A program made the translations under genes and the position numbers. The notes under the pieces were generated by a model, which saw only the letters and a list, made by a program, of their open reading frames with translations, was not told the DNA's origin and did not search any database. From contig NZ_JALVTW010000030.1 of the NCBI RefSeq assembly GCF_027023985.1, positions 1 to 64,000 on the forward strand: 64,000 nucleotides of DNA. The letters are read 5' to 3'. Origin of the DNA: Persephonella sp. GTDB taxonomy: Bacteria; Aquificota; Aquificia; Aquificales; Hydrogenothermaceae. How positions within the stretch are numbered: position 1 is the stretch's first letter; each line of letters opens with the position of its first letter. This document shows, in pieces, positions 55,958 through 59,979 of this stretch.

Positions 55958-56473
55958 ATGAAAAAATTTTTCTTAACTATTTTTGTTTCATTGTTATTTT
56001 TTGTATATGCATTTGCAGAAAAGGGAGTATATAAAGCTTATGTATATTTTCTCCCTGTCGGTGAAATAACTTTTGATATTCAGGATAAAAAAGCATTTGT
56101 AAAAGGTGAAACATACTCAAGCTTCAGATGGATTTATAATTACACCTTTAGATTTGAAGCCTCTGAAAAAGGCTATTTTCTTTATGAGAAAGAGAACAAA
56201 AAAGAAAAAATATACAAAAATGAGCAAATTCTGAAGAAAAAACCATGGCTTCCTTTAATAGTGAAGTATATCCTTGAAGGTCAAAAGCCTGACCCTGAAA
56301 AAGACAAAAACTTTCCATACAAAATAGTTGAAAAAGAAGATGAGGTGATAATATACCCACTGAAAAGCAAAAAAGTAAAAAGAATAATCCTTAAATTATC
56401 AAAAAACAGCAGACTACCTGAAAAAATAGAAATAGAAGGGAAAATAGATATAACATTGGAAAGAATTAAATAA
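55958..56473 (+). CDS. Secreted protein, DUF3108-like
   Basis: A signal peptide (KKFFLTIFVSLLFFVYAFA) is followed by about 150 residues of mostly beta structure. The start of the mature part (VYKAYVYFLPVGEITFDIQ) and the later SRLPEKIEIEG resemble the DUF3108 family of envelope proteins, but this is by eye. AGGA lies before the ATG. The end overlaps the convergent JAMM gene by 8 bases. Confidence 0.6.
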   Translation: MKKFFLTIFVSLLFFVYAFAEKGVYKAYVYFLPVGEITFDIQDKKAFVKGETYSSFRWIYNYTFRFEASEKGYFLYEKENKKEKIYKNEQILKKKPWLPLIVKYILEGQKPDPEKDKNFPYKIVEKEDEVIIYPLKSKKVKRIILKLSKNSRLPEKIEIEGKIDITLERIK

Positions 56474-56885
56474 TTTCCACTTGCTCTTCCTGAAATTTGC
56501 CGTTAATTAGTTCCCAGCTTCTCCAACTCTCAGCCTTACCATTTTTCACAGATAGAATTATATAAGACATATCAGGTTGGGCAAATCTAAGGTCTGTTTC
56601 TGAAGGTCTATCAGGATGGTCAGGGTGGGTGTGGTAAATTCCTACAATCATTAACCCCCTTTTGTCTGCATAATTTTCAACCTTTAAATAATCCTGAGGT
56701 GCTATCTCAAATCTATCGTTAGCTCTTTCCTTATTTTGATTTTCTACCTGAAAAGCCTCAACAGCCGTTCTTATATTATTTTCAAAATCTATCTCACCAA
56801 TTAAAAATCCGCATATCTCATAAGGATATCCTCCTTCGCCCTGCTTTTTAATTTCCTCTATTACTTCTTTTTTTATTTTAAGCAT
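56466..56885 (-). CDS. JAMM/MPN-family metallopeptidase (M67 type)
   Basis: A short JAMM protein of 139 residues. The zinc motif HTHPDHPDRPSETD follows IVGIY, and the upstream Glu sits in YPYEICGFLIG. Bacterial relatives remove residues from the C terminus of ubiquitin-like sulfur carriers, which would fit cofactor or cysteine synthesis, but no such carrier gene is adjacent. It is divergent from lipB with only about 30 bases between the starts. Confidence 0.85.
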   Translation of the reverse strand: MLKIKKEVIEEIKKQGEGGYPYEICGFLIGEIDFENNIRTAVEAFQVENQNKERANDRFEIAPQDYLKVENYADKRGLMIVGIYHTHPDHPDRPSETDLRFAQPDMSYIILSVKNGKAESWRSWELINGKFQEEQVEII

Positions 56886-56902
56886 TATCAGACCCCTTTT
56901 TG

Positions 56903-56908
56903 TATAAT
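56903..56908 (+). promoter_or_regulatory. -10 element placing transcription start at the lipB ATG
   Basis: TATAAT is followed by exactly 6 bases and the ATG at 56915, with no Shine-Dalgarno. The spacing equals that at the M23 gene, again implying a leaderless mRNA. No clear -35 was seen. Confidence 0.5.
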
Positions 56909-56914
56909 TTTATC

Positions 56915-57529
56915 ATGGAGATTATTGATTTAGGCAAAACAGAGTATAATCGGGCTTTAAAACTGCAAAAGGAATTTTTTGAGAAAAAATTAAAAAATCC
57001 CCAGCAGGAAGACATTGTCCTTATCACAGAACACTATCCGGTATATACCCTTGGGAAAACCACAAAAAAAGAGCATCTGATAAATATCCCTCCGGAAATT
57101 CCTGTGGTTGAAATAGAACGTGGCGGAAGTGTAACATTCCACGGGGGAGGCCAGATAGTTGTTTATCCAATAATAAGCCTTACTGGGAAAAAGCTATCTG
57201 TTAAAAATTTTGTATGGTCTCTTGAAGAAGTAATGATACAGACCTTAAAAGAGTTTGATATAGAGGCTTATAGACTGGAAAAGCTGCGGGGAGTATTCAC
57301 GCCAAAAGGTAAAATAGGCTTTGTAGGAGTAAAAATATCCCGTTTTATTTCCTATCATGGATTTTCATTAAACGTAAATGTTGATAAAACGTTTTTTGAT
57401 AAAATAATCCCCTGTGGAATAACTGATATTCCTGTTTGTAATATGGCAGACTTTATACCTGAGATTGATATTGAGCAGGTGAAGCCTGTTCTTAAAGAAA
57501 AAATAAAAATGATTTTAGGGGAAAAATAA
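56915..57529 (+). CDS. lipB: Octanoyl-ACP:protein octanoyltransferase
   Basis: Moves octanoate from acyl-carrier protein to lipoyl domains. Visible: ERGGSVTFHGGGQIVVYPI, GKIGFVGVKISRFISYHGFSLNV with the catalytic Lys, and IIPCGITD with the acyl-binding Cys. The ATG at 56915 gives 204 residues beginning EIIDLGKTEYNRAL; an in-frame TTG five codons earlier overlaps the -10 element. It shares one base with the dapF start (TAATG), so the two are coupled. Confidence 0.92.
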   Translation: MEIIDLGKTEYNRALKLQKEFFEKKLKNPQQEDIVLITEHYPVYTLGKTTKKEHLINIPPEIPVVEIERGGSVTFHGGGQIVVYPIISLTGKKLSVKNFVWSLEEVMIQTLKEFDIEAYRLEKLRGVFTPKGKIGFVGVKISRFISYHGFSLNVNVDKTFFDKIIPCGITDIPVCNMADFIPEIDIEQVKPVLKEKIKMILGEK

Positions 57530-58392
57530 TGGAAAAAAACTTCTTTGTAAAATCCCATGGCCTTGGAAATGATTATATATGTTTAGATGAGGAAAATATT
57601 GATTTTCCTTTATCTACACAGGCTATAAAGACTATTTGCGATATCCATTATGGAATAGGTTCAGACGGGATACTACTGAAAACAGCTTCAGAAAAGGCTG
57701 ATTTTGGTCTGAGAATTTTTAATCCTGATGGTTCAGAGGCAGAAAAAAGCGGAAATGGTTTAAGAATTTTCATAAAGTTCCTGTATGACTACGGATATAC
57801 AGATAAAAAGGAATTTACAGTAGAAACAAAGGGTGGCATCGTAAAAGCAAATATTGATGAGCTTGAGAATGGTAAAGCCCGTATAATTACCGTAGATATG
57901 GGAAAGGCTATTTTTAAGTCAGATCAGATACCTGTTATCTGTGGGACAGAAGAATGTATAGGCAAAAAAATTAAAATAAAAGACAAAGAATTTGAGATTA
58001 ACTGTGTATCTGTAGGAAATCCCCATTGTGTAATAATTACAGATGAACTGAATGAAAAGATAGTCAAAGAATACGGTCCACTTATCGAAAATTATGAAAT
58101 ATTCCCAAACAGAACTAATGTCCAGTTTGCAAAAGTAATCTCCCCAGACATTGTTGAGATAAGGATATGGGAAAGGGGAGCAGGATACACCCTCGCTTCA
58201 GGCAGTTCTTCCTGTGCTGTTGCATCTGTTATGGTAAAAAGAGGGCTGACAAATAGAAATCTCACAATAAAAATGCCTGGTGGAGAACTGAAAATATCAA
58301 TAGATGAAAACTGGAATATAAGAATGACAGGGGAAGTTCAGGAAATATGCTCAGGAGTCTTAAGCCCTGAACTGACGTCCCAGTTTATTTAG
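57529..58392 (+). CDS. dapF: Diaminopimelate epimerase-like protein with both catalytic Cys replaced by Ser
   Basis: DapF converts LL- to meso-diaminopimelate with two cysteines as acid and base. The fold is clear: FVKSHGLGNDYICLD at the N terminus, NPDGSEAEKSGNGLRIF, VGNPHCVI, and RGAGYTLASGSSSCAVAS. In the family these loops read CGNG and ACGTG. Here both cysteines are Ser (codons AGC for Ser74, TCA for Ser224). The rest of the substrate loops is intact and the 287 residues are full length, so it is not an eroded pseudogene. It may use serine chemistry, act on another substrate, or be non-catalytic. It is coupled to lipB. Confidence 0.85.
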   Translation: MEKNFFVKSHGLGNDYICLDEENIDFPLSTQAIKTICDIHYGIGSDGILLKTASEKADFGLRIFNPDGSEAEKSGNGLRIFIKFLYDYGYTDKKEFTVETKGGIVKANIDELENGKARIITVDMGKAIFKSDQIPVICGTEECIGKKIKIKDKEFEINCVSVGNPHCVIITDELNEKIVKEYGPLIENYEIFPNRTNVQFAKVISPDIVEIRIWERGAGYTLASGSSSCAVASVMVKRGLTNRNLTIKMPGGELKISIDENWNIRMTGEVQEICSGVLSPELTSQFI

Positions 58393-59221: not shown

Positions 59222-59677
59222 TTAAAGTATTTTCTTACTTTCTAAGTAATTTTCTATATTTTGCAGAGCTTTTTCCAAACGAGAAATTTTATTCATAGCT
59301 ATATTAATCTCTTCTTTTATAGATTCAAGTTCGTCAGGGTATTCATGTGTAAGTTTATTTCTTAATTTTCTTATTTCCATCCATTCCAAAGAAGAATCAA
59401 TTATTCCTAATTTTTCCAATCTATCCAGTATATCTATAAAACTCATATTTTCATAAAGTTCTCCTATCTCTTCTAAAAAACGCCTAAAAAGTTTTTGCCC
59501 TAAGTAATCCTGAAGTTTTATAAATCTAAAAACAAATGTATCTATTACTTTTACAACTTCAAAATCATCTATATCAAAATTTTCCAGCAAATTTTTGTCT
59601 TCTATTTCTTTAGAAGCCTGTTTAAGCCTATTCAGGTGAATTTTGGCTATCTGAAGATTTTCCTTAATTATGCTCAA
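59222..59677 (-). CDS. hepT: HepT-like toxin of a HepT/MntA pair
   Basis: A helical protein of 151 residues with the HEPN-type motif RKLRNKLTHEYP (R, four to six residues, H then Y), expected to be an RNase. In the HepT/MntA system the partner nucleotidyltransferase adds AMP to a tyrosine near this motif and silences it. The gene overlaps the partner by 4 bases (ATGA type). Both lie on the minus strand as an isolated two-gene unit between the coiled-coil gene and htpX. Confidence 0.82.
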   Translation of the reverse strand: MSIIKENLQIAKIHLNRLKQASKEIEDKNLLENFDIDDFEVVKVIDTFVFRFIKLQDYLGQKLFRRFLEEIGELYENMSFIDILDRLEKLGIIDSSLEWMEIRKLRNKLTHEYPDELESIKEEINIAMNKISRLEKALQNIENYLESKKIL

Positions 59678-59979
59678 ATTAGCACCCCTTTCTCTTTTGC
59701 TTCTTTAAAAATGTTTTTCTCTTTTTTATATGGATCTTTAACTATTAAATCCACTTTTCTTTCTATACCTTTTATTTCTAACTGTGCTAAAAATTTGAGT
59801 TCTTCCTGTAAAGAGGTTTTTTTATCTGTTTCTATAAGTATATCAATATCTCCACCTTTCTTGCTTAAGTCTGCCCTTGAACCAAAAATATAGACCTTGG
59901 AATTTTCCCCAAATATTTCCTTTGCCAAATTCTTAATTATTTTGATTTCATTTTGAGATAATCTAACTCTTTTTTCCAT
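59674..59979 (-). CDS. mntA: MntA-like nucleotidyltransferase antitoxin
   Basis: A minimal nucleotidyltransferase of 101 residues. The signature is VYIFGSRADLSKKGGDIDIL, with GSR and the two metal-binding Asp (DID), and a third Asp in KVDLIV. With the downstream HepT gene it forms a type VII toxin-antitoxin unit, in which the toxin is inactivated by AMP transfer. No Shine-Dalgarno is visible before the ATG. A 12-base tandem duplication lies upstream at 60000-60023. Confidence 0.82.
   Translation of the reverse strand: MEKRVRLSQNEIKIIKNLAKEIFGENSKVYIFGSRADLSKKGGDIDILIETDKKTSLQEELKFLAQLEIKGIERKVDLIVKDPYKKEKNIFKEAKEKGVLI

Follow-up and report, generated by a model that had tools for sequence, protein, structure and literature searches.

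Serine at both catalytic cysteine positions in a branch of the diaminopimelate epimerase family

INTRODUCTION

In textbook accounts, diaminopimelate (DAP) epimerases and most cofactor-independent racemases are defined by two cysteines, and the removal of an alpha-proton with a pKa of about 29 by a thiolate of modest pKa is an old puzzle. The window, i.e., the whole stretch of 64,000 nucleotides of the hot-vent bacterium Persephonella sp. analyzed here, contains a dapF gene whose product carries serine in the place of both residues, which raises the question of what such a protein does and by what chemistry. A thiol/thiolate pair is given as the mechanism of DapF (PMC12039745), and cysteine is regarded as favored because the pKa values of serine and threonine are higher, the exceptions named being single Cys-to-Thr replacements only (PMC8142540). 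Cys-to-Ser mutants of PddB retained <0.1% of their activity (PMC8225329), and a like loss is mentioned there, at second hand, for Cys-to-Ser variants of M. tuberculosis DapF. Since the exchange nearly abolishes activity in ordinary relatives, a natural Ser/Ser protein needs explaining. A description of, or a biochemical datum on, a Ser/Ser DapF was not found in the open-access papers searched; earlier notice in subscription papers is possible. The best explanation, probable on the sequence comparisons reported below, is a working LL-/meso-DAP epimerase in which serines replace both catalytic cysteines, with partial help from other residues allowed.

RESULTS

A full-length DapF with two serines

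The gene, its neighbor, and the residues discussed in the text are located as follows.

56900..57529, + strand: lipB, neighbor only (TIGR00214, 170 bits, cut-off 83.55)
57529..58392, + strand: dapF, Ser/Ser diaminopimelate epimerase gene, 287 aa (TIGR00652, PF01678, AlphaFold pLDDT of 96 and DapF fold)
57745..57747, + strand: Lys73, signature residue of the subfamily with a presumed role
57748..57750, + strand: Ser74, codon AGC, in the place of the first catalytic cysteine at the N-terminus of helix 75-87
58027..58029, + strand: Cys167, located in the GNPHC motif and conserved in all Ser/Ser proteins
58198..58200, + strand: Ser224, codon TCA, in the place of the second catalytic cysteine at the N-terminus of helix 225-237
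58204..58212, + strand: Ser226-Ser227-Ser228 in place of Thr-Gly-Ala of the usual ACGTGA loop

The dapF start codon shares one base with the stop codon of lipB (TAATG). Ser74 sits in the motif EKSGNGLR and Ser224 in ERGAGYTLASGSSSC, and the second loop accordingly reads ASGSSS instead of ACGTGA, with the Gly and Ala after Thr changed as well. The initial annotation had reported serine at both catalytic positions, which the codons AGC and TCA confirm exactly; its description of a full-length protein with intact fold and DAP-binding motifs, encoded by a gene coupled to lipB, was likewise upheld. The protein scored 249.9 bits on the equivalog model TIGR00652 (cut-off 114.65) and 198.8 bits on PF01678, and it stayed far below the cut-offs for PhzF isomerases (TIGR00654, 19.6 versus 76.2 bits) and for the bifunctional DapF/glutamate racemase (NF038284, 80.8 versus 350 bits). 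The thiol/thiolate pair of DapF is missing, and the pattern of the dehydratases of the proline racemase superfamily, with one cysteine kept and the other replaced by threonine, is not present either, as both residues are serines. By all contextual tests the protein is DAP epimerase-like, and it departs from the textbook family in one chemical trait.

In the AlphaFold2 model (mean pLDDT of 96), helices 75-87 and 225-237 start right after Ser74 and Ser224, a placement at helix N-termini that has been credited with lowering the cysteine pKa in DapF (PMC12039745). A fold search returned DapF structures with the same two-domain fold as the closest solved ones, headed by the C73S mutant 2q9h; identity with most solved DapFs was 32-36% at TM-scores of 0.8-0.92, and proline-racemase-type structures matched distantly (10-15% identity). 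The positions that we take, after H. influenzae DapF, to contact DAP are N14, N65, N164, N197, E215, and R216. All except N164 are invariant across the Ser/Ser and the Cys/Cys proteins, and N164 is invariant within the Ser/Ser proteins.

Comparison with characterized systems places the protein next to canonical DapF (TIGR00652/PF01678; H. influenzae 1gqz, Anabaena 9mro), with which it has the fold, the GNPH and ERG motifs, the DAP contacts, and the place in the pathway in common. It differs by its serine pair and ASGSSS loop in place of the cysteine pair and ACGTGA, as well as by Lys73 and Ser45, where the Cys/Cys set compared has Met and Ala, and it falls outside the PROSITE signature of DapF, which demands cysteine (signature as given in PMC8225329). 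The H. influenzae mutants C73S (2q9h) and C217S (2q9j) also have serine at one catalytic position, but these are laboratory single mutants, described as hindered in catalysis (PMC12039745), whereas the window protein is naturally double Ser and shows accompanying changes. A catalytic cysteine has also given way to a hydroxyl residue in EcL-DER, MMP0739, and trans-3-hydroxyproline dehydratase (PMC8142540); however, only one cysteine is replaced in those enzymes, whose chemistry is one-way or that of a dehydratase, and not both in a DAP pathway context. The histidine racemases HisR/CntK and the O-ureidoserine racemase 7vdy combine the DapF fold with another substrate, but HisR uses a cysteine pair (PMC11602996), and 7vdy is merely 31% identical to the window protein, which retains the DAP-contact positions.

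Conservation in Hydrogenothermaceae

Serine occupies both sites in every Hydrogenothermaceae DapF inspected (65-95% identical). In two sister families within the order, the DapFs are merely 32-38% identical to that of the window, and the first 12 of these inspected were Cys/Cys. A search throughout the phylum found close matches to the window DapF confined to Hydrogenothermaceae; in the other families, the further DapFs inspected have cysteine. An alignment of relatives, as proposed in the initial annotation, hence yielded Ser/Ser and not Cys/Cys and leaves the observation standing.

The same families can be distinguished by another enzyme, the TIGR03540-type DapL, which exceeded its cut-off in 14/16 of the sister-family genomes searched (G037-G052) and is absent from Hydrogenothermaceae (G000-G024), where the window genome has DapC instead. 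The type of DapF and the route to LL-DAP thus differ in the same family, i.e., between Hydrogenothermaceae and its sister families.

One clade with signature residues

In a tree of 108 sequences, a branch with 100/100 support separates 20 distinct Cys/Cys proteins from 86 distinct Ser/Ser proteins. The tree was drawn with a midpoint root and its Cys/Cys branches are long; the direction of change was therefore argued from codons and from the prevalence within the whole family rather than from a rooted tree. Position 74 is encoded by AGY and position 224 by TCN, each in 103/105 distinct clade members. Both codon classes are one base away from the cysteine codon TGY, consistent with a pair of single-base replacements in an ancestor, which would have been followed by long constraint.

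Residues that set the Ser/Ser proteins apart from the Cys/Cys proteins include K73, S45, P66, L78, I80, Q199, W214, and S227. Lys73 is found in 85/86 distinct Ser/Ser proteins, whereas the 20 Cys/Cys proteins compared uniformly have Met; Cys167 is present in 86/86 and Cys37 in 85/86 of the Ser/Ser set.

The only Cys/Ser member, L091 (L091:5-856) from a Bacteroidales MAG, falls on the Ser/Ser side of the tree. It has Cys74 (TGC), Asn73 instead of Lys, and a Ser224 encoded by AGT rather than TCN, and may represent a natural intermediate or a partial revertant. The joint occurrence of Cys74 and Asn73 is suggestive of a coupling between Lys73 and Ser74, but this is one case, and L071, with Ile73 and Ser/Ser, is contrary.

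Distribution of the Ser/Ser type

A single scan, in which the family alignment was run against a genome collection, yielded at least 80 loci; it finds near relatives of the query and is neither a census nor an unbiased sample of DapF. Of the 80 listed, 79 were Ser/Ser and one was Cys/Ser. The hosts of the Ser/Ser type among the matches listed span about eight phyla, comprising Bacteroidota (mostly Prolixibacteraceae and Bacteroidales), Clostridium, Neobacillus, and Eubacterium, as well as Ignavibacteriae, NC10, Dadabacteria, a deltaproteobacterium, and Rokubacteria. When 297 Bacteroidota genomes were drawn evenly, two Ser/Ser proteins were seen in the top-scoring matches, including the one at the center of the draw, and the remaining DapFs inspected from a part of it had cysteine at position 74. 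Ser/Ser is therefore a minority type, which took over from the cysteine enzyme in certain lineages. A distinct, horizontally spread Ser/Ser subfamily forms part of the explanation that we regard as probable. Thermophily, to which the double exchange had been linked in the initial annotation, was rejected as its reason, as the matches listed are mostly Bacteroidota, Clostridium, Neobacillus, and Dadabacteria, and most hosts found are not thermophiles.

The epimerase step in the window's genome

The genome of the window (99.97% complete) has a single DapF-family locus, and the second dapF for which the initial annotation had recommended a search is absent. The pathway search covered DapC, LysA, MurE, and meso-DAP dehydrogenase (Ddh). 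DapC (589.9 bits, cut-off 453.6), LysA (561.7 bits, cut-off 297.9), and MurE (574 bits, cut-off 257.3) were found, and Ddh was not, its best match in this genome spanning 41 positions with 20.8 bits (cut-off 180.6). MurE carries the motif DNPR, presumably a mark of DAP-adding enzymes, and DapC is the transaminase of the acyl branch leading to LL-DAP. Given DapC, LysA, and a DNPR-type MurE without Ddh, something must therefore turn LL-DAP into meso-DAP, from which the cell wall is built, and the window DapF is the only candidate found in this genome. The idea that the organism might need another epimerase was thus not borne out.

The epimerase step in other hosts

A single DapF was detected with the DapF model in 31 of the 40 hosts checked (30 Ser/Ser, one Cys/Ser), and none of the 40 has Ddh; assembly completeness is unstated for both counts. 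Bypass by Ddh was accordingly rejected for the window genome and for these hosts. The single-copy isolates include Draconibacterium sediminis, Sunxiuqinia, Mariniphaga, Flavobacterium panacis, Apibacter mensalis, and Clostridium paridis, and in the last of these dapA lies near the Ser/Ser dapF.

Among the 80 loci listed, a TIGR03542-type DapL is encoded within 5 kb in 23, a LysA-like decarboxylase in 25, at least one of the two in 33, and both in 15; five neighboring DapLs tested scored 613-637 bits on TIGR03542. DapL produces LL-DAP and LysA consumes meso-DAP, so these neighbors flank the epimerase step on both sides. A search showed that cotransfer with NF004937-type DapL, as suggested by the single locus L076, is not general; the partner in Bacteroidota is the TIGR03542-type DapL.

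DapFs of the Cys/Cys and the Ser/Ser type occur together in several Bacillota and some Bacteroidota (L053, L060, L063, L064, L073, L077, L082, and L109). The coexistence of the two types makes a second function possible in these hosts, and a division of labor or a recent acquisition are possible explanations. Usable data on cell wall DAP of the hosts were not found in titles and abstracts of the literature.

DISCUSSION

On the sequences compared, the Ser/Ser swap, fixed across a whole branch of the DapF family, is not an error but a genuine exception that can be tested. The context, i.e., intact contact positions, pathway neighbors, and the lack of another candidate for the step, argues strongly for DAP epimerase function of the window protein, which we hold to be very probable. 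For the serines as the acid/base pair in strict terms, the chances appear slightly better than even. According to the proposed mechanism, the pair would be placed at the two helix N-termini, where one serine, as an alkoxide or a strongly polarized hydroxyl in the closed, water-free site, would remove the alpha-proton and the other would return a proton from the opposite face. Lys73 directly before Ser74, Ser45, and the ASGSSS loop (Ser227) may tune the serines as compensating changes. The proposal of the initial annotation that a serine pair epimerizes at high temperature thus survives as the leading reading with respect to the pair but not with respect to the temperature. A wider claim is evenly balanced in our judgment. 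According to it, a natural family of cofactor-independent amino-acid epimerases would use Ser/Ser to abstract the proton of an unactivated alpha-carbon, an adjacent, near-invariant lysine and a remodeled helix cap would make this possible, and the family could replace the cysteine enzyme across phyla.

If the Ser/Ser clade stands in for the Cys/Cys enzyme, it would provide a test of what catalysis needs, namely, a thiol or a closed site with helix dipoles. Thiol-directed inhibitors of DapF should then miss Ser/Ser bacteria, the Ser/Ser enzyme should resist oxidation of catalytic thiols, and an annotation by motifs that require cysteine would overlook this type of DapF.

The main alternative with the same substrate, a DAP epimerase whose base is not a serine but Lys73 or one of the invariant cysteines Cys167 and Cys37, is unlikely. 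The distribution of Lys73 (85/86 Ser/Ser, 0/20 Cys/Cys proteins) and its absence from L091, the sole member with Cys74, point in this direction, as does the conservation of Cys167 and Cys37. However, Lys73 adjoins Ser74 and its side chain may point away, and L071 manages with Ile73 and Ser/Ser. Cys37 is near-invariant in the Cys/Cys proteins too and so looks structural. If another cysteine did the catalysis, Cys167 would be the strongest candidate, but this is thought unlikely. The canonical DapFs of Anabaena and Arabidopsis also have cysteine at this position, and covalent inhibitors attach to their usual catalytic pair (PMC12039745).

Activity on another substrate or in another reaction, i.e., as a different racemase or as a dehydratase like the Thr/Cys relatives, with meso-DAP made otherwise, appears rather improbable. 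Precedents exist in related enzymes whose chemistry is altered by the replacement of one cysteine (PMC8142540) and in FN1732, which was annotated as DapF and turned out to be a histidine racemase (PMC11602996), and some hosts also keep a Cys/Cys DapF. Against this stand the 31 single-copy hosts and the window genome, which have no other DapF and no Ddh, the DAP-contact positions that are kept, and the DapL and LysA genes that adjoin the gene in many relatives. The dehydration considered in the initial annotation loses ground with the 33/80 listed loci that sit with one or both of these genes.

An inactive relic or pseudoenzyme, whose hosts would use LL-DAP directly or import meso-DAP, would agree with the almost dead Cys-to-Ser mutants of ordinary relatives (PMC8225329), but it is highly improbable in view of the strict conservation over about eight phyla among the matches listed with no disabling mutations seen, the operon-like neighbors, and the presence of a DNPR-type MurE and LysA in the window's genome. 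An error of sequencing or assembly at codons 74 and 224, for which nothing speaks, has a negligible probability, as the same residues recur in genomes obtained independently by many laboratories (52-95% identity), and chance and sequencing error are excluded as the source of Ser/Ser.

A further deviation from the cysteine pair was seen in a Clostridiales MAG (L158), whose DapF has Phe in place of the first catalytic cysteine (MFGN) and retains the second; it lies in a very long open frame of 1354 codons, and the genome holds two other DapF copies. With respect to the surroundings of the window gene, a HepT-like protein (PF01934, 27.4 bits) is encoded beside a small nucleotidyltransferase (PF18765/PF01909, about 36 bits) at 59222-59979 on the minus strand, and the two are likely to form a HEPN-MNT toxin-antitoxin pair. 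On the other side of lipB, the minus strand encodes a prokaryotic JAB/JAMM-domain protein (56466-56885; PF14464, 90.8 bits) with a weak likeness to desampylases (71 bits, under the cut-off of 130).
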